Shown here: one piece after another, positions 4,324 through 45,845 of the stretch
Numbering within the stretch: the first letter of the stretch is position 1
Layout of the letters: every line of letters begins with the position of its first letter
Source of the DNA: Mycobacterium sp. 3519A
GTDB lineage: Bacteria > Actinomycetota > Actinomycetes > Mycobacteriales > Mycobacteriaceae
NCBI RefSeq assembly: GCF_900240945.1
Contig: NZ_OESG01000013.1
Coordinates: forward strand, 2,441,622 to 2,505,621
Length of the DNA: 64,000 nt
Reading direction: 5' to 3'
The notes under the pieces: model-generated
Databases searched by the model: none
The model's input: the letters and a program-made list of their open reading frames with translations, nothing else
What the model was told of the DNA's origin: nothing
Translations under genes and position numbers: made by a program

Positions 4324-5529
4324 TTAGATTTCGAGGGCTTGGTACGTGCGGCGGACGAACTTCGGTTGTGTTGACTGCAGTTTCAGCAGCGCGGTGTTGC
4401 CCGCGACCGCGGCGGCCGCATCGGCGCCGAAGTCCGGCAGATTCTGGATCAGGTAGATCAGGATCAGGTCCTGGCTCGGATCGGCCTGCCACCACGTGCC
4501 GTACGCGCCGGGCCAACTGAAAGTGCCGAGACCGCCGGGGCCGAACAGCTGACGGGACCTGGCGGGGTCGGTGACCACCGACAAGTTCAGCCCGAATCCG
4601 CGGCCGATCCAGAACGGCATGCCGAGGAACGGATGTTGCTTCTGTTCGTCGGTCAGCCGGTCGGTACGCATCGACCGCACGGACTGCTCGGACAGCACCC
4701 GCACACCGTCGAGTTCCCCGCCCGCCAACAGCATTCGGGCGAAGCGCAGATAGTCGTCGGCGGTGGAGAACAGGTTCGCACCACCCATGCAGAACGGTGG
4801 CGGCGCGATGGGGGGTGGCCCCATCGCGTCGTGGCTGAGGGTGTCGTCGTCCTCGAGCTTGTACATGGTGGCGGTGCGGCCGCGGTTGCGGGCCGCCACG
4901 AAGAACGCGGTGTCCGCCATCTTCAGCGGCTCGAAGATCCGCTCCGCCAGCACGTCCTGCAGGATCTTGCCTTCGATGCGTTCCAGCAGGATGCCCAACA
5001 CATCGGTGGCGTTGCTGTAGGTCATCCGGTCGCCGGGCTGATGCTGCAGCGGCAGTGCCGCCACCTCGGCCAGCCAGCGCTCCGGGTTCTGCCGCGGCGA
5101 AATCTTCGAATAGGCCTTGGCCAGTGGACCGGTCACCGAGAAGAAATAGGCAAGCCCGCTGCGGTGGGTCATCAGATCGTCGACGGTGATCTGTCGGCGC
5201 GCGGGGTGCGTCTTGTCGAGCGGGCCGCCCGGGCTGTCGAGCACCCGCATGTCCGCGAGTTCGGGCAGCCATTTGGCGACGGGATCGGTCAGGGCGAGCT
5301 TGCCCTCGTCGATCAGGCTCATGGCCGCTGCGACCGTCACGGGTTTGGTCATCGACGCGATACGGAAGATGGTGTCGCGCCGCATCGGCAGGTTGGCGTG
5401 CACGTCCCGGTGGCCGAGCTCGTTGACCTGGAGGACCTCGCCAGAGCGCCAGACCAGCGTGACGGCCCCGGCCAGGAAACCGGCATCGATGGATTCGCGG
5501 ATGGACGCCTGGTTGGTGTCAAGCTTCAT
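4324..5529 (-). CDS. Serine beta-lactamase-fold hydrolase (class C / EstB-like)
   Basis: A 401-residue protein. I chose ATG at 5529 (MKLDTNQASIRES) because the further upstream open frame lacks family similarity and would run into the region opposite the next gene. The family's catalytic SxxK tetrad is SMTK at residues 59-62 and the second motif YxN is YSN at 171-173. No signal peptide is seen, which favours a cytoplasmic esterase or amidase of the EstB/penicillin-binding-protein-like group over a secreted antibiotic-resistance enzyme. The stop codon abuts the start of the FAD monooxygenase, suggesting that the two enzymes act on the same compound or pathway. Confidence 0.85.
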   Translation of the reverse strand: MKLDTNQASIRESIDAGFLAGAVTLVWRSGEVLQVNELGHRDVHANLPMRRDTIFRIASMTKPVTVAAAMSLIDEGKLALTDPVAKWLPELADMRVLDSPGGPLDKTHPARRQITVDDLMTHRSGLAYFFSVTGPLAKAYSKISPRQNPERWLAEVAALPLQHQPGDRMTYSNATDVLGILLERIEGKILQDVLAERIFEPLKMADTAFFVAARNRGRTATMYKLEDDDTLSHDAMGPPPIAPPPFCMGGANLFSTADDYLRFARMLLAGGELDGVRVLSEQSVRSMRTDRLTDEQKQHPFLGMPFWIGRGFGLNLSVVTDPARSRQLFGPGGLGTFSWPGAYGTWWQADPSQDLILIYLIQNLPDFGADAAAAVAGNTALLKLQSTQPKFVRRTYQALEI

Positions 5530-5650
5530 CGGCGTCAGCGTACCCAGGGGCAATTCGAGTATGCGACTACCTAATCCCGATCGCCGCCCGCGGCAGACGA
5601 TGGTTGCGCGGCGCTCACTGCCGTTTCGCAGCCTGACTTGGGAGGTGGGC

Positions 5651-8600
5651 ATGATGGGTTACGCCAGGTATGTCGGTCGAGTCGGCGGGTTGGCAGTGGC
5701 ACTAGGGGTCGGGATGGCCGTCGCGACCACACCCGCGTTTGCCGATCCGTCTGATTCCGAATCGACGACGTCGACGACGTCGTCGTCATCGGAGGCGAAG
5801 GCGCTGGATTCCAAGGCGGACGAGCCAAAGACCGCCGACGAGCCAAAGGTCGCCGACGAGCCGACGGACACCGACAGCACCACCGCAACCAAGAAGGCCA
5901 CCGCGACCTCACCGGCCAAGGACAAGAAGTCGGGTTCGGACAAACCCAATGCGGCCAGGACGGCGAAGAAGCCGAAGCGAGTCAAGCCGAGCACACCGTC
6001 GGCCGGCGACGACACCGATGACCGGTCGGCGACCAGCAATGCCTCGGTAGCCCCGCGCAAGTCGCAGCCGGCAGACCCGCCGGCACCGACCGGTAAGCCG
6101 GTCTCCGACACGGCGCCCGCGCCGGTGTCGACGACGTTGCAAGCCGTGACGGTGCAGGACGCGCCGAAGGTCGATCCGGCGCCGAAGCCGGAGCTGACGC
6201 CGATGGCGTCGAATCTGCTTGCGGCCGTCGGGCTGGACTCATCGGCCGACGGTGACACTCCCGAGGTACCCGGCGAGTCGCCGCTGCTGTTGGCCGGTCT
6301 GGCGGCGTTGCGGCGGCAGACGCAGAAGGAGTCCGTCGACGACGTTGGCTTCTCGAAGGTGGCGGACGACCGGGCGCAGACGAGCTTGATGGTGGCCGCC
6401 GCGGCGGTGAACTCCGCACCGACGGCGGCCCCGGTCGTGGGCGTACCCGATCAGGCCACCGGCGCAGTGGTTGTCGCGATGAACGCGACTGATGCCGAGG
6501 GCAATTCACTGTCGTACGTCGTGACCGGTCAGCCCACCGGGGGCTCCGTCGAGGCGCTGAGCAGCGGCCAGTTCCGGTACACGCCGACGGTGGCGTCGCG
6601 ACTGGCGGCGGCGTCGACGTCGACACCGGATTTCGACTCGTTCACGGTCACAGTCAGCGACGGCCAGGGCGGCGTCACGCCGGTCACCATCACGGTCCCG
6701 AAACTGCCTGCGGTGTGGGCAACTCAGGCGTCGGCGTCGAACGTGACGGGCAGCAAGCCATACGGGGTGGCGTTGGTGGGGGACCTCGCTTATGTGGCGA
6801 ATCAGGGCACCAACACCGTGACGGTGGTCAACACGAAGACCGGTGCTGTGGTTGGTAGTCCGATTGTGGTTGGCACTGCGCCCACTGGAGTGCTGGCCAA
6901 CGCCGACGGCTCCAGGGTCTACGTGACCAACCGGACCAGCGGGACGGTGTCGGTGATCGACACCGCGAACAGGGCGGTCACATCGGTGAAGGTGGGGTCA
7001 AGCCCAGAGTTCATGACGCTCAACGAGAATGGCACCAAGCTGTATGTCACCAACTACGGTTCCAGCAGTGTGTCGGTGATCGAAACGTCCACGTTCAAAG
7101 TCCTCGACGTCAATCCGTCGACCACGACTGTCGATGCGATCAAAGTGGGCGCCTATCCGCGAGGAATCGCGTTCACGACGGTCAACGGCCAGCCCCGGCT
7201 GTATGTGGTGAGCCGTGCAGGCAATTCGGTGTCGGTGGTCGATCTCAACACCTACAAGCTCATCGACGCCAATCCGTCGACGACGACGGTGGATTCGATC
7301 AAGGTCGGGTCCACGCCGGAGATGATCGCGATCCGCGACGGCTACGCCTATGTCACCAACTACGGGTCGAACACCGTCTCGGTGATCAACGTCACCACCA
7401 ACAAGGTCGAGGGGGCGGCGATCGCGGTGGGTTCCAGGCCTGCCGGGATCACGGTGAGCCCGGACGGCAGCCTGCTGTACGTGGCCAACGGTAACGACAC
7501 GGTCAGTGTGATCAACGCCAAGACCCGTTCGCTGGTGAGCACCGTGCAGATCGACACCGCGCCGGAGACCAACTACCACATCGTCGCTGTCCGCGCCGAC
7601 GGCAGCCTGGTCGTCACCGACATGGCCGACAAGGCCGTCCGTGTGGTCAAGCTCAACCGCGGTAACACCGCACCGGTGGCGATCAGCGATCCCACTGTGG
7701 GGGCGGCGGACTCGAACGGCGCGATCACCGGTTCGGTGAACATCAAGGACTGGGACGGCGACACGCTCACCTACAACGCCATCAGCGGGCCGAGCAGGGG
7801 CACGCTGACATTCAACCCGGCGGCGGGTACTTACACATACACACCGACTCAGGCGGGCCGCGACGCCGCTGCCCAAAATCCCGGCCTGACAGACACATTC
7901 ACCATTCGTGCTACTGATCCTGCTGGAGCCTACAGGGACACCGCTTCGATCATTGTGACGATCCTGCCGTCGGTGATCTCGGGGCAACCGAGCGCAGCCC
8001 CGTACCGAAGCGTCGATCCGTTGACCGGTGAAATCCGTGGGCCAGTGGGTGTAGTCGGAAGTGGCCTGAGCTATACGGTCGTCGGCGCACCTACCAACGG
8101 TTCGGTGAGGATCACGTCACAAGGCGACTTCGTCTACAACCCAACTTTGGCGACCAGGCTGGCGGCCGATCTGACCTCCGGACCAGACACCGACAGCTTC
8201 ACGGTGAAAGTCACCGGCGCGCAGATGAATCAAACGGTAACCGTGACGGTGCCTGTCGCACCGGCCCGCATCACAGTGGACAGCCAGTTCGCGCCCACGC
8301 TCGGGACCTCGCCCGCAGGTGTCGACATGAATTATCGGCGAGCCTGGATTGTGAATCAGGCCGATGGCACCATGTCGATAATCGAGGTGCCACACGGTTA
8401 CACGGTGGCCACTCTCCCAGTCGGGACATCGCCGACGTCGGTCGCGTGGGACTTCGATTACGCCTGGGTCACCAATCAGGGATCCAATACCGTCTCAGTC
8501 ATCGACCTTGTTTACAACCCAGGCGCAACGCAGACGCTGTCGGGTTTCAACCAGCCCTCGGACGTTCTGCTCGACTACCCTGGCATCGTCTTCGTGTCCA

Positions 8601-10216
8601 ACAAGGGCAATGGCACGGTGGTTGCCGTCCACCCGCAGACCAAACAGGTGCTGCGAACCTTCCAGGTCGGGCAGAGTCCGACGAAGATGGCGCTCACCGG
8701 CGCCCACATCTACGTCGCGAACTCCGGCAGCAATTCCGTGTCGATGATCGACCTGGAAACGAACACGGTGAGCGCGCCGATTTCGGTGGGCGTCAACCCA
8801 ACTGGACTGGCGGTCAGCCCCGACGGCAAACGGGTGTATGTAAGCAACCAAGGCTCGAGTACGGTGTCGGTGATCAACGCGGTCACCAATACTGTCGTGG
8901 GCTCGCCGATCGCCGTGGGAGTGCAGCCAACGAGTGTCGTGGTCAGCCCGGACGGCAGCCTGGTCTACGTCGCCAACAGCGACGACACGGTGTCGGTGAT
9001 CGACACCCGGACAAATTCGGTGATACGTACGGTGGCGATCGACCCGAATCCCGAAATCGGTTCGCATTCCATGGCGTTGAGTCAGGCATCGAATTATCCG
9101 TACCGCGACGACGACCGGATCTACGTCACCGACGCGGTCGACCGTACGATGCGGGCACTGGCGATCACGCCGTCGCCCGCGCCGCAACTGCCGGCCACCA
9201 CGACGGAGGTCACCACTGGCAGCGCCCCGGGGAGTGTGGCGGTGGTAGGCAACTACGCATATGTCGTCAACGCCGGCACCAATACGGTCGCCAAGATCGA
9301 CACCACCACCAACACCGTCGTCGGAGGTCCGGTGGTAGTCGGAACGTGGGCGACGTCGATTGCGGCGAGCCCGACGACGCACGAGGTCTTCGTCGCCGAC
9401 TACTACGACAACAAGGTGTACGTGATCGATACCAACACCGATACGGTCGTGCGTGCCATCGACGTACCCGTTTCGCAATACGAGTACGCGGAATGGTGGA
9501 ATGGCTTGACCGGCATCAAGTCCAGCCGGGATGGCCGCCGACTCTTCGTCACCTCGGCGGACAACAATCTCACGGTGATCGACACCGCGAGCAACACAGT
9601 GGTGGGAATAGTGACGGCCGGCGCGGACATGGAAGTCAGCGCGAACGGCAGCTTGCTCTACCTGACCACTGGTGGCGACGCCATCTCGGTGTACGACACG
9701 GCGACGATGGCGCCGGTCGGGGAAATCCATGTCGGCCCTTACCAATACGACGGATCCCGGCAAATGGCGATCAGTGCCGACGGAAAAATGGCGTACGTGA
9801 CCACCAGCGTGGTGGTCGTCGAGCCCGTCGACTTCTACCACACCGATCAAGATGTCATCAGGGACAACAACAACAATTTGTGGCGGGTCTACGGCAGATA
9901 CGACGCGGTGTCGGTGATCGACATCGACCCGGCCAGCCCGAAGTACAACACCGAAATCGCGAGCATCCCCGTGGTCGGCGGCGCCGGCGATATCGCCGTC
10001 AACTCCGACGGCAGTCGTGTGTACGTCACCGCTACGGACGGCAAGACGGTCACCGTGGTCGATCCCAACACCAGAACCGTGCTCGGGTCGGTGACCACGA
10101 ACCAGACCCCGTACGGCTACCAGATGGTCGCTGTGGGCGGCAACGGCACGCTCTACTTGACGAACGGGTTCGACAGCAACGTGTACGCGGTAACGCTCGG
10201 TTCGCTCAACGTGTAG
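5651..10216 (+). CDS. Giant exported protein with Ig/VCBS-like domains and three predicted YVTN beta-propellers
   Basis: A 1521-residue protein. ATG at 5651 lies 5 nt after GGAGG; ATG 5654 is also possible. Residues 1-31 form a signal peptide (LAVALGVGMAVATTPAFA, cut before DPSD). About 32-250 is Ser/Thr/Lys/Pro-rich low complexity. An Ig/VCBS-like domain lies at about 253-351 (NSAPTAAPVVGV to VTVSDGQGG). A first YVTN propeller spans about 356-670, two more Ig-like domains about 671-875, and two further propellers about 876-1175 and 1184-1521. I count 21 blade motifs of the type YVTNYGSSSVSVI, i.e. three sets of seven. It is probably a cell-surface adhesion or scaffold protein. No enzyme motif or C-terminal anchor was seen. 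Confidence 0.88.
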   Translation: MMGYARYVGRVGGLAVALGVGMAVATTPAFADPSDSESTTSTTSSSSEAKALDSKADEPKTADEPKVADEPTDTDSTTATKKATATSPAKDKKSGSDKPNAARTAKKPKRVKPSTPSAGDDTDDRSATSNASVAPRKSQPADPPAPTGKPVSDTAPAPVSTTLQAVTVQDAPKVDPAPKPELTPMASNLLAAVGLDSSADGDTPEVPGESPLLLAGLAALRRQTQKESVDDVGFSKVADDRAQTSLMVAAAAVNSAPTAAPVVGVPDQATGAVVVAMNATDAEGNSLSYVVTGQPTGGSVEALSSGQFRYTPTVASRLAAASTSTPDFDSFTVTVSDGQGGVTPVTITVPKLPAVWATQASASNVTGSKPYGVALVGDLAYVANQGTNTVTVVNTKTGAVVGSPIVVGTAPTGVLANADGSRVYVTNRTSGTVSVIDTANRAVTSVKVGSSPEFMTLNENGTKLYVTNYGSSSVSVIETSTFKVLDVNPSTTTVDAIKVGAYPRGIAFTTVNGQPRLYVVSRAGNSVSVVDLNTYKLIDANPSTTTVDSIKVGSTPEMIAIRDGYAYVTNYGSNTVSVINVTTNKVEGAAIAVGSRPAGITVSPDGSLLYVANGNDTVSVINAKTRSLVSTVQIDTAPETNYHIVAVRADGSLVVTDMADKAVRVVKLNRGNTAPVAISDPTVGAADSNGAITGSVNIKDWDGDTLTYNAISGPSRGTLTFNPAAGTYTYTPTQAGRDAAAQNPGLTDTFTIRATDPAGAYRDTASIIVTILPSVISGQPSAAPYRSVDPLTGEIRGPVGVVGSGLSYTVVGAPTNGSVRITSQGDFVYNPTLATRLAADLTSGPDTDSFTVKVTGAQMNQTVTVTVPVAPARITVDSQFAPTLGTSPAGVDMNYRRAWIVNQADGTMSIIEVPHGYTVATLPVGTSPTSVAWDFDYAWVTNQGSNTVSVIDLVYNPGATQTLSGFNQPSDVLLDYPGIVFVSNKGNGTVVAVHPQTKQVLRTFQVGQSPTKMALTGAHIYVANSGSNSVSMIDLETNTVSAPISVGVNPTGLAVSPDGKRVYVSNQGSSTVSVINAVTNTVVGSPIAVGVQPTSVVVSPDGSLVYVANSDDTVSVIDTRTNSVIRTVAIDPNPEIGSHSMALSQASNYPYRDDDRIYVTDAVDRTMRALAITPSPAPQLPATTTEVTTGSAPGSVAVVGNYAYVVNAGTNTVAKIDTTTNTVVGGPVVVGTWATSIAASPTTHEVFVADYYDNKVYVIDTNTDTVVRAIDVPVSQYEYAEWWNGLTGIKSSRDGRRLFVTSADNNLTVIDTASNTVVGIVTAGADMEVSANGSLLYLTTGGDAISVYDTATMAPVGEIHVGPYQYDGSRQMAISADGKMAYVTTSVVVVEPVDFYHTDQDVIRDNNNNLWRVYGRYDAVSVIDIDPASPKYNTEIASIPVVGGAGDIAVNSDGSRVYVTATDGKTVTVVDPNTRTVLGSVTTNQTPYGYQMVAVGGNGTLYLTNGFDSNVYAVTLGSLNV

Positions 10217-43406: not shown

Positions 43407-45845
43407 ATGTCGGCAGCTAAGCGTGGCAAGCATGCGAAGCGGCCCGAGAGGGCCGGTCGCGCGAGCCGACTAGCGGTCGCTGTAGGTCTCGGGATCGCGG
43501 TGGCCACCACAGGTCACGGCGTCGCGTCTGCCGCCACAGGTGAGAACTCGACCTCAGGGTCGCCGGACACCGACGGCGGATCGAAGGCGAACGCCACGAC
43601 CGACTCGGGCACAACGACGTCCGGTGCAACGGGCACCTCCGGCGCCACCACCGCGGGCACGGAACCGGAGCACCCGACCACGTCGACGTCGACGACGACG
43701 TCCACCTCGACGACCACGACCTCGTCGGGATCACAGACCACGACCACCACGACCTCCGGCGATGGTCCGACATCGTCGGTCAGTGCCTCCGGTGGTTCCG
43801 GTACCACGGTCTCGCACGAGAACTCGCCCACGCCCACACCGACACCGACCGCCATCGAACCGACCACGGAGAAACCCAAGCCGCAGGAACACGACCAAAC
43901 ACCCTCGGAGACAACGACTCCGACGCCTGACGTGACGCCAGCGACCGATGACAAGCAGAAGTCGTCGACGTCGGCAGCGCAGGCGGTGGTAGAGGAGAAG
44001 GCCGCGGTCACCGAGCCCGAAACCGGCGAAACCGTCACGGCCGCGGCACAAACCGCTGAGCAGAAGACCACGCAGACCGCGGTGGCGCCCCTCGCGCGGA
44101 CGACGGCGGCGACCACACCGGCCACCCCGCCGACGTTCGGGCTTCCGACGGTGACCCTGCCGCCGTATCCCACCATCCCCGGCGTATCACCGACGCGGGT
44201 GGCGGTGGCCGTCGTCGTCGTGCTGGGGCGTGCGCTGCAGACCGCGCTGTCGGGACCCATCCCTAATCCGATCGCGATCCCGATCTACATGGTGCTGGTC
44301 GCGGCGTATCAGCGCCTCACCGAGATCGCGCTGAACCATGTCCCGGTCGTCACGCAACCGACTCCGGCACTTCAGGTTCCGGTGCTGGGCACCATCACGG
44401 GCACGCTCGTCGCGACCGATCCGGACGGTGATCCGCTGACGTTCACCTACACACAGCCCACCAACGGCGGCCTGGTCGTCGTGACGAACGTGCCGCTGAC
44501 CAACCAGTACACCTACGTCTACACCCCGCCGCTGCTCGGCGGCGGCGGGCCGAACTCGTTCACCATCACCTTCGACGACACCGGCGTCGGGGACCACTTC
44601 TACGCACCGAACGGACACACCACCTCGTACACAGTCAATCTCGACGTGCCGACCGCGACGGTCGGCACGCGAGACAGCATCGGGGTGGTGCGCGGCGGCT
44701 TCGCGGGCGGCAGTGTCGACGGGCGGACCTACAGCCTCGCCAACGGCAACACCGCGGGCGCGACCGCCACGTCGGCGTTCACCACGCTCGGCGGCATCGT
44801 CAGCCTCAACACGACGACAGGCGACTGGACCTATGTCCCGGCGGTGTCCGGTCACAACATCCTCGGAATCCCGGACAACACAGACACTTTCGTGGTGACC
44901 GTCGACGACGGGGTGCACGGCGCCGTCCAGACGACGGTGTCGGTCGGCGCGGACCTCGGCATCGCGGTGACAGGGGCGACCACGAACACCGCCAACGGCG
45001 CCTACAGCGGTTCGTTGAACATCCCCGTCGGCGACAACGGGTTGCTGACCTACTCGGTGGGCACCGGACCGTCATCGAAGGGCAGCGTGTTCGTCACGTC
45101 CACGGGCGGCTTCATCTACACGCCGACGCCGCAGGCGCGCCACGCCGCAGCGGCCGCCAACGCCACCGCCGCCGACAAGACGGACACGTTCACCATCAAG
45201 GGCACCGACGCCAACGGCAGGTCGATCACCGTCGCGACCGTGTCGGTGAACATCCTGTCCGCCAACAGCGCACCGGCCGGCGGCACCGCGACCTTCCCCG
45301 CCGCCAACGCCAACGGCGTCATCACCGGCTCGGTGACAGGCATCACCGACGACGATGACGACACGCTGACATACACCGGCACGGCCGGTAAGGGGACCGT
45401 CACCTTCGACGGCACCACTTTCACGTACACCCCGACGTTGGACGCCAGGCACGCGGCAGCCGCCGACAATGCCAGCACCGCCACCAAGCAGGACACCATC
45501 ACCATCACCGTCGACGACGGACACGGCGGCACGGCGACATTCAGCAGCGGTGCGTTCAACATCACCCCGCAGAACACCGCGCCGACCTACACCAGCGTCA
45601 CCAAGTCCAGCGGTGGCCTGCTGGGCCTGACCAAGACGTGGACCGTCAACGGCATGACCGACGCCGACAGCGACACGCTGACGCTGGCCGTCACCTCCCT
45701 GCCGTCGGGCGGACTGCTGAACCTGCCGGTGATCCTCGGCAACACGGTGACCCTTGTGAGCCTGCTCACCGAGAGCGGCAAGACCTTCGTGGTCACCATG
45801 TCCGACGGGCACGGCGGCAACGTGCCGATCACCTTGACGATCTAG
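43407..45845 (+). CDS. Exported Ig/VCBS-repeat surface protein
   Basis: An 812-residue protein. A signal peptide ends at about residue 43 (LAVAVGLGIAVATTGHGVASA). About 44-235 is Thr/Ser/Pro-rich low complexity. A hydrophobic conserved stretch follows (VAVAVVVVLGRALQ, then YMVLVAAYQRLTEIALNH). About 320-812 contains five cadherin/VCBS-like domains, marked by DPDGDPLTFTYTQPTNG, DDDDDTLTYTGTAGKG, TYTPTLDARHAAAADNAS and the closing VTMSDGHGGNVPITLTI. The signal peptide and repeats resemble those of the 5651-10216 protein. It is likely a wall- or surface-associated adhesin-type protein. No anchor or catalytic motif is visible. Confidence 0.87.
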   Translation: MSAAKRGKHAKRPERAGRASRLAVAVGLGIAVATTGHGVASAATGENSTSGSPDTDGGSKANATTDSGTTTSGATGTSGATTAGTEPEHPTTSTSTTTSTSTTTTSSGSQTTTTTTSGDGPTSSVSASGGSGTTVSHENSPTPTPTPTAIEPTTEKPKPQEHDQTPSETTTPTPDVTPATDDKQKSSTSAAQAVVEEKAAVTEPETGETVTAAAQTAEQKTTQTAVAPLARTTAATTPATPPTFGLPTVTLPPYPTIPGVSPTRVAVAVVVVLGRALQTALSGPIPNPIAIPIYMVLVAAYQRLTEIALNHVPVVTQPTPALQVPVLGTITGTLVATDPDGDPLTFTYTQPTNGGLVVVTNVPLTNQYTYVYTPPLLGGGGPNSFTITFDDTGVGDHFYAPNGHTTSYTVNLDVPTATVGTRDSIGVVRGGFAGGSVDGRTYSLANGNTAGATATSAFTTLGGIVSLNTTTGDWTYVPAVSGHNILGIPDNTDTFVVTVDDGVHGAVQTTVSVGADLGIAVTGATTNTANGAYSGSLNIPVGDNGLLTYSVGTGPSSKGSVFVTSTGGFIYTPTPQARHAAAAANATAADKTDTFTIKGTDANGRSITVATVSVNILSANSAPAGGTATFPAANANGVITGSVTGITDDDDDTLTYTGTAGKGTVTFDGTTFTYTPTLDARHAAAADNASTATKQDTITITVDDGHGGTATFSSGAFNITPQNTAPTYTSVTKSSGGLLGLTKTWTVNGMTDADSDTLTLAVTSLPSGGLLNLPVILGNTVTLVSLLTESGKTFVVTMSDGHGGNVPITLTI

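Follow-up and report, generated by a model that had tools for sequence, protein, structure and literature searches.

The window, a 64,000-nt stretch of the Mycobacterium sp. 3519A genome, contains an ORF on the forward strand at positions 5651-10216 that encodes a protein of 1,521 aa followed by a stop codon (P0001), exactly the frame given in the initial annotation. The ORF begins ATG ATG GGT, and GGGAGGTG lies just 5′ of the first ATG. A divergent gene for a protein with a beta-lactamase fold is found upstream; read from its first start, this ORF (4324-5652, reverse strand) overlaps the start of P0001 at 5651, whereas a start near 5535 would leave an intergenic gap. Downstream of P0001 are genes for a phosphoribosyltransferase and a carbamoyltransferase, which we take to be pyrR and pyrB. 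The features of the gene, in window coordinates, are as follows.

5651..10216, forward strand: whole gene of the propeller/Ig protein P0001, 1,521 aa
5669..5713, forward strand: E1, conserved signal-peptide core YVGRVGGLAVALGVG, residues 7-21 (A1 profile; codon test)
5714..5743, forward strand: rest of the signal peptide, up to a putative type I-like site between TTPAFA and DPS (placed by eye), no cysteine, residues 22-31
5744..6250, forward strand: low-complexity linker rich in S/T/P/A/D/E, with K/R patches, residues 32-200; probably disordered, judging from composition
6251..6334, forward strand: E2, GDTPEVPGESPLLLAGLAALRRQTQKES, putative helix, residues 201-228 (A6 profile)
6410..6706, forward strand: Ig/VCBS-like domain 1, residues 254-352 (Ig profile; Pfam Big_9)
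6737..7678, forward strand: propeller 1, 7 blades, residues 363-676
7664..7966, forward strand: Ig/VCBS-like domain 2, residues 672-772 (Ig profile; Pfam Cadherin_4 at 668-730)
7988..8257, forward strand: Ig/VCBS-like domain 3, residues 780-869 (Ig profile)
8264..9187, forward strand: propeller 2, 7 blades, residues 872-1179
9194..10213, forward strand: propeller 3, 7 blades, with an insertion in blade 5, residues 1182-1521

The initial annotation had counted 21 blade motifs by eye and grouped them into three seven-bladed propellers, and both two rounds of blade HMM searching and the predicted closure of blade 7 agree with that count. The first-round model, which is circular in that it was built from the 21 hand-placed blades of P0001, found 21 blades in blocks at residues 365-676, 883-1179, and 1187-1521; the second-round model, built from hits in 121 proteins including P0001 and hence partly circular, again found 21. 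With the NCBIfam YVTN repeat model (TIGR02276), P0001 scored 310.5 bits against a cut-off of 27.85, so that chance is out of the question, with 15 stretches rather than 21 passing on their own. Structure prediction, which had been named as a check, was performed on residues 322-1521 using AlphaFold2 (6 rows) and returned a pLDDT of 80 and a pTM of 0.49; because of this pTM, the relative placement of the domains is unreliable, and the model does not confirm the length of >20 nm expected in the initial annotation. According to strand lists, from which closure was taken in place of coordinates, blade 7 of each of the three propellers consists of three local strands completed by one strand from before blade 1. 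Since the long model barely tested propeller 3, that propeller was folded and searched separately, and alone it reached a pLDDT of 86.6 and a pTM of 0.86. The top Foldseek rows for the 1,200-residue model were set aside as chained multi-propeller matches at >30 Å rmsd. As predictions, the models and the fold matches support closure of the repeats into three 7-bladed propellers. The insertion in blade 5 of propeller 3 (about residues 1392-1424; VIRDNNNNLWRVxGRYD) is kept in relatives such as P0002, P0003, and P0006 and is a possible ligand site.

The three Ig-like domains that had been claimed were all recovered with the Ig profile, and Pfam Big_9 matched P0001 in three stretches (60.7 bits; cut-off 23.6). 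Two of them had been placed between the first propeller and the rest, and this order is right: a single Ig domain stands before propeller 1, and the other two separate it from propeller 2. A search of the YncE and VCBS families, also suggested as a check, put both over cut-off, with 94.6 bits for the YNCE domain PF21783 (gathering score 27.1) and 35.1 bits for the NCBIfam VCBS model TIGR01965 (cut-off 15.5). Besides propeller and Ig/cadherin models, no Pfam family scored over its cut-off (25 of 26 families shown), in keeping with the earlier remark that the protein carries no enzyme motif. A lipobox cysteine is absent, as the whole of P0001 is without any Cys, and a pattern search of the entire protein found no LPXT[GA] sortase motif.

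Proteins resembling P0001 were numerous, with 1,345 at E≤0.001 among 8,000 scored candidates. The label "uncharacterised" holds for P0001 as far as searched, but its kind, YVTN propellers combined with Ig/VCBS domains, is well populated. The named organisms among the 120 proteins listed were mostly Mycobacterium, with some Rhodococcus and Mucilaginibacter. A plasmid search returned 506 records, all of <60% identity, indicating that the fold is widespread, and a scan of genome contigs returned a single relative. Blade runs were counted in 119 listed relatives, a set that omits P0001 and P0005 (a 100% match): 182 of the 267 runs were seven blades long, 25 were six, 17 were eight, and 12 were three, and longer runs comprised 14 (8 cases), 28 (6), 13 (3), 15 (2), 21 (2), 27 (1), and 36 (1) blades. 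Where other domains flanked the run on both sides, 134 of 158 runs had seven blades, 10 had six, and 9 had three. Seven blades are thus the unit, the deviations coming from weak blades missed or added, and the number of units varies. Architectures among the relatives included I b7 II b14, I b7 IIII b7, and I b7 I b7 I b7 II b7 II, and some relatives had a long non-repeat C terminus with a glycoside-hydrolase entry (e.g., PF03659 in P0028, P0030, and P0036). E. coli YncE (PDB 3vgz, 3vh0, 7seu) and Leptospira Lp49 (3bws) have one propeller each; both are near P0001 in kind, but P0001 falls under the YncE equivalog cut-off (NF052280; 130.9 of 400 bits). The archaeal surface-layer protein of Methanosarcina (PDB 1l0q) pairs a YVTN propeller with PKD, whereas the Ig-like domains of P0001 are of the Big_9/VCBS type. 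P0001 itself is a fresh member of an already known protein kind, and its N-terminal module, on which the initial annotation made no comment, is more unusual than the rest.

In Mycobacterium sp. ACS1612 (L021), a counterpart of P0001 lies between matching flanks. DNA identity is 94% downstream and 76% over a stretch that reaches from the upstream flank into the gene's first half; the similarity ends inside the gene at window position 7920 and returns at 10142, and a comparison of L021:10265-12323 with window positions 7921-10141, the C-terminal half, produced no DNA match at E≤1e-10. The ACS1612 protein has the order Ig - 7 - four Ig - 7, where P0001 has Ig - 7 - two Ig - 7 - 7, and so has two Ig domains more and one propeller fewer than P0001. 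pyrR loci were matched in 41 genomes and read in 30, these being the best pyrR matches to the P0001 genome rather than a random draw, with ACS1612 outside them. Because P0001-like sequence occurred within 1.5 kb of pyrR in one of the 30 loci, that of its own genome, the gene is lineage-specific at this site, with modular turnover, and is not core. P0001 is thereby a clean example of a three-propeller array with parts swapped at a fixed locus.

P0001 is probably exported, as the initial annotation held, given an N terminus that reads as signal-peptide-like. A paralog search showed that its first 30 residues are shared by other proteins encoded in this genome that are unrelated at their C termini. 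With residues 1-60 as query, and proteins of 0.55-1.75 times the length of P0001 eligible, 17 proteins among 168 candidates matched at E≤0.01, including Ig-only proteins and one with a GH5 entry. The conserved core, E1, has the consensus [YF][VI]GR[VI]G[AG]LAVALG[VI]G. The A1 profile, made from nine own-genome rows that are all among its matches, found 17 matches in this genome at E≤5.9e-4 with the next at 0.20 (150 of 207 candidates scored); P0001, one of the nine training rows, matched at E 5.2e-19. Over the 15-residue core of the nine paralogs (36 pairs), identity was 0.878, 0.948, and 0.380 at the first, second, and third codon positions and 0.874 for amino acids, the rows having been chosen by score, a choice that raises the apparent conservation of amino acids but is unable to produce a difference between codon positions. 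In the 11 residues after E1 of the same nine genes, the corresponding values were 0.520, 0.598, and 0.316, with 0.348 for amino acids. The E1 core is under selection at the codon level. Given the scrambled third codon positions, an origin of E1 identity in gene conversion or very recent duplication was rejected. L8, A9, and G13 of the core were invariant in 67 of the 68 carriers scoring ≥45 bits, a conservation inflated by members outside the P0001 genome, which are mostly best-scoring matches; G3, R4, and G6 were invariant as well, as the pattern that positioned the rows demanded. Since an ordinary h-region would accept most hydrophobic residues, we infer that something reads E1.

Alternatively, E1 could be an ordinary signal peptide that was inherited and spread with duplicated genes, having no special function. 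Some carriers are clearly paralogs, such as the trio at C14:2872-2896 kb, and one ancestral 5′ end could have passed to all of them; we nevertheless consider this explanation unlikely, as third positions of the core are 38% identical against 87% for amino acids, and the next 11 residues have drifted to 35%.

Between E1 and the second element, the linker had mean contents of 25% S/T, 11.5% P, 15% A, 15% D/E, and 8% K/R over 55 proteins, with an acidic first part. A basic patch is not general, because at least five K/R within 12 residues occurred in the linkers of 25 of these 55. Alignment of the carriers revealed E2 as the motif PxxPxxxPLxWxxLAxxRR[EQ], about 200 residues after E1 in most of them. 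The E2 model was trained on 16 carrier rows, one of which was short by one residue near its N-terminal end, and could miss E2 elsewhere. In the P0001 genome it gave 11 matches at E≤2.5e-4, five of them training rows, with the next at 0.57 (150 of 204 candidates scored); P0001, itself a training row, matched the A6 profile at 1.3e-9. Ten of the 11 ORFs also had E1 at E≤5.9e-4, and the eleventh was an alpha/beta hydrolase with a weak E1 match (E 0.24). Among 74 carriers, E2 was found in 55 (37 of 56 untrained) and in none of 74 shuffled decoys, with a median start at residue 221. Because the model found no match in the other 19 carriers, five of which were ORFs of <260 aa, the two elements are not obligatory together. 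E2 is weakly conserved, with identities of 0.497 for amino acids and 0.541, 0.644, and 0.499 for the three codon positions, and the 55 proteins gave no sign in E2 of the codon-position contrast seen in E1. No Pfam or NCBIfam model reached its cut-off over the E1/E2 module in the proteins scanned. The MAP_0585 family model (NF043060), which was not among the NCBIfam matches of P0001, hints at a described relative of the module: its first 140 positions weakly matched residues 10-149 of one carrier, far under cut-off (18 of 170 bits, E 0.0023), and another carrier scored 10.6 bits. Literature searches with the exact E1 and E2 motif strings and conserved-signal-peptide terms, and others on YVTN propellers in mycobacteria and on mycobacterial propeller-Ig proteins, found no description of the module, a weak negative given the few subscription papers covered.

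Among the carriers of E1 in the P0001 genome, three were of the GH5 cellulase type with Ig and propeller-type domains and two were DUF4185 proteins; others were a phosphoesterase, a GH1 protein, and a protein with a single propeller. The 74 extracted carriers were not a random sample (17 from this genome, 15 from genome G011, and 42 others). For a Pfam census, 70 were used, omitting proteins of 45, 62, and 189 aa and a fourth that was truncated at its contig stretch; Big_9 occurred in 35 and DUF4185 in 10. The census, made in two sets (39 and 31 proteins) at E≤1e-5 with the 25 commonest families of each set, yields lower bounds, so that there were at least 10 proteins with Cellulase, three each with GSDH and Peptidase_S15, two each with GH1 and the CshA repeat, and one each with GH64 and the PE-PPE hydrolase. 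DUF4185 enzymes are endo-D-arabinanases that act on arabinogalactan and/or LAM, and for Rv3707c the same study noted an N-terminal region rich in proline, along with a signal peptide that had been re-predicted (PMC10115798).

Several individual carriers deserve mention. Three large E1 proteins lie within about 24 kb at C14:2872-2896 kb of genome G000 (L022, L023), with Ig domains, propeller-type matches, and a C-terminal GH5-type domain. At L064:493-2100, an E1-type start belongs to a protein that resembles the "acyltransferase PE" model (52.6 bits of 580), although this domain is elsewhere associated with PE proteins. One E1 carrier of alignment A5 contains a PF01068 DNA-ligase domain (1.1e-39), possibly from an ORF that was wrongly extended.

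In 98 genomes of the genus, with up to 77 candidates scored per genome, 73 had at least one E1 match at E≤0.1 and 43 had at least five, with a maximum of 41. In a family sample (121, at E≤1e-6), seven genomes matched E1, namely five of the seven same-genus genomes listed and two of other genera with one match each; the 94 genomes without an E1 match were not itemised singly. In one of these two genomes, an alpha/beta hydrolase had an E1-like start; in the other, E1- and E2-like elements were seen by eye ahead of an Ig-domain array. E1 is thus largely restricted to the genus Mycobacterium. PE proteins were counted in the same 98 genomes, with up to 46 candidates scored. No genome combined at least five E1 matches with at least 10 PE matches; 43 had E1≥5 with PE<10, 37 had E1<5 with PE≥10, and 18 were low in both. 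Of 14 control genomes, one (E. coli) also gave a match to the PE model, and low PE counts may therefore include false matches. PE/PPE expansion marks slow growers. In a tree of 30 genomes (6 PE-rich, 17 E1-rich, and 7 neither), for which pyrR and the following 1.5 kb were used, all six PE-rich genomes fell in one clade of seven rows, and the E1-rich label needed six changes. The exclusion was rejected as evidence for a causal trade-off between PE and E1: it is strong as a count, yet because the six PE-rich genomes share one clade, it may be a single event.

Little is understood of how proteins arrive in the outer envelope of mycobacteria and are retained there. We put forward tentatively, as a plausible rather than a probable reading, that E1 and E2 form a Sec-dependent sorting module that is undescribed and nearly specific to the genus Mycobacterium, in which a signal peptide read by its sequence and a docking helix would bring as many as about 40 modular proteins of a genome to one envelope site. 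The proteins so sorted would be polysaccharide hydrolases, esterases, and Ig and propeller arrays such as P0001. Conserved signal peptides reused on many surface proteins are familiar from the YSIRK type of Gram-positive cocci; the reuse is similar, but the motif differs, P0001 is without LPXTG, and no YSIRK model was among its 13 NCBIfam matches. PE/PPE proteins are helical ESX substrates, unlike a Sec-type signal peptide. They place one conserved N-terminal unit on many C-terminal domains, including propellers and hydrolases (PMC4758615), so that E1/E2 is alike in use and has some C-terminal domain types in common, but not in sequence; a Pfam scan of the N-terminal 257 residues of P0001 found no PE or PPE domain, giving a chance match alone (SOG2, E 7.7). 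If the proposal is true, the E1/E2 module would stand beside the PE/PPE system as its Sec counterpart. A short signal core on dozens of enzyme and scaffold proteins would offer a concrete, mutable handle on envelope targeting, and E1 a simple motif for listing the envelope-directed proteins of a genome, including those of the DUF4185 type, whose relatives cut arabinogalactan.

Starting from the domain anatomy, the sharing of the module, and the codon constraint on E1, which sequence analysis and prediction establish, we infer the following course of export, sorting, docking, and ligand binding. With moderate confidence, we regard P0001 as a Sec-exported, enzyme-free, modular envelope protein. 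E1 would direct export and may also select a particular envelope route or place. After cleavage, the S/T/P-rich linker of about 170 residues would span part of the cell wall, and the short helix ending in RR[EQ] (E2) would dock or tether the protein. The three propellers, rigid and 7-bladed, and the three Ig-like spacers would then be presented outside as platforms for binding. Among ligands for the propellers, a glycan of the envelope or the environment, or an enzyme acting on such a glycan, seems likeliest; such a partner is favored because the same N-terminal unit sits on glycan-active enzymes in the same genome. A scaffold is a reasonable description of P0001, since relatives put like arrays on different catalytic domains.

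The main rival to a glycan ligand is that P0001 serves as a protein-protein hub, with propellers that bind or stabilise an envelope transport or enzyme complex. A mycobacterial precedent is MSMEG_5308 (homolog Rv1057), a cell-envelope 7-bladed propeller like those of P0001, which co-purifies with and stabilises MmpL3/TtfA (PMC6593404). P0001 does match the corresponding stabilizer model, NF048007, at 91.5 bits, but the equivalog cut-off is 600, which indicates another family, and the single-propeller paralog L029 scores similarly (86.1 bits). As a lineage-specific gene is also unlike a part of a core complex, a hub seems doubtful. Another explanation is an adhesin or biofilm protein whose outward array binds host, environmental, or sister-cell surfaces. 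The large repetitive array with its signal peptide, the domain turnover at one locus, and CshA-type repeats in two of the 31 module proteins of one set are consistent with this role, but no adhesin model is among the Pfam and NCBIfam families listed for P0001 and reach beyond the mycomembrane is putative, so that we judge it quite improbable. That one propeller would be catalytic, in the manner of a lactonase or quinoprotein, is very unlikely: the Pfam models for the 7-bladed Lactonase (PF10282; 77.8 bits, gathering score 21.7) and Cytochrom_D1 (55.7 over 25.5) are exceeded and TIGR03866, a PQQ-catabolism-associated propeller subfamily, is a near miss summed over nine stretches (280.2 of 287.3), but the propeller-enzyme equivalogs fall far short (L-NosZ, 81.1 of 700; hydrazine synthase beta, 189.3 of 560). 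A glycan-directed, enzyme-free envelope array is the reading that we prefer.

Elsewhere in the window, the forward strand at 43407-45845 encodes an Ig-domain (Big_9) protein of 812 aa, the signal peptide of which is a weak E1 match (E 5.9e-4).
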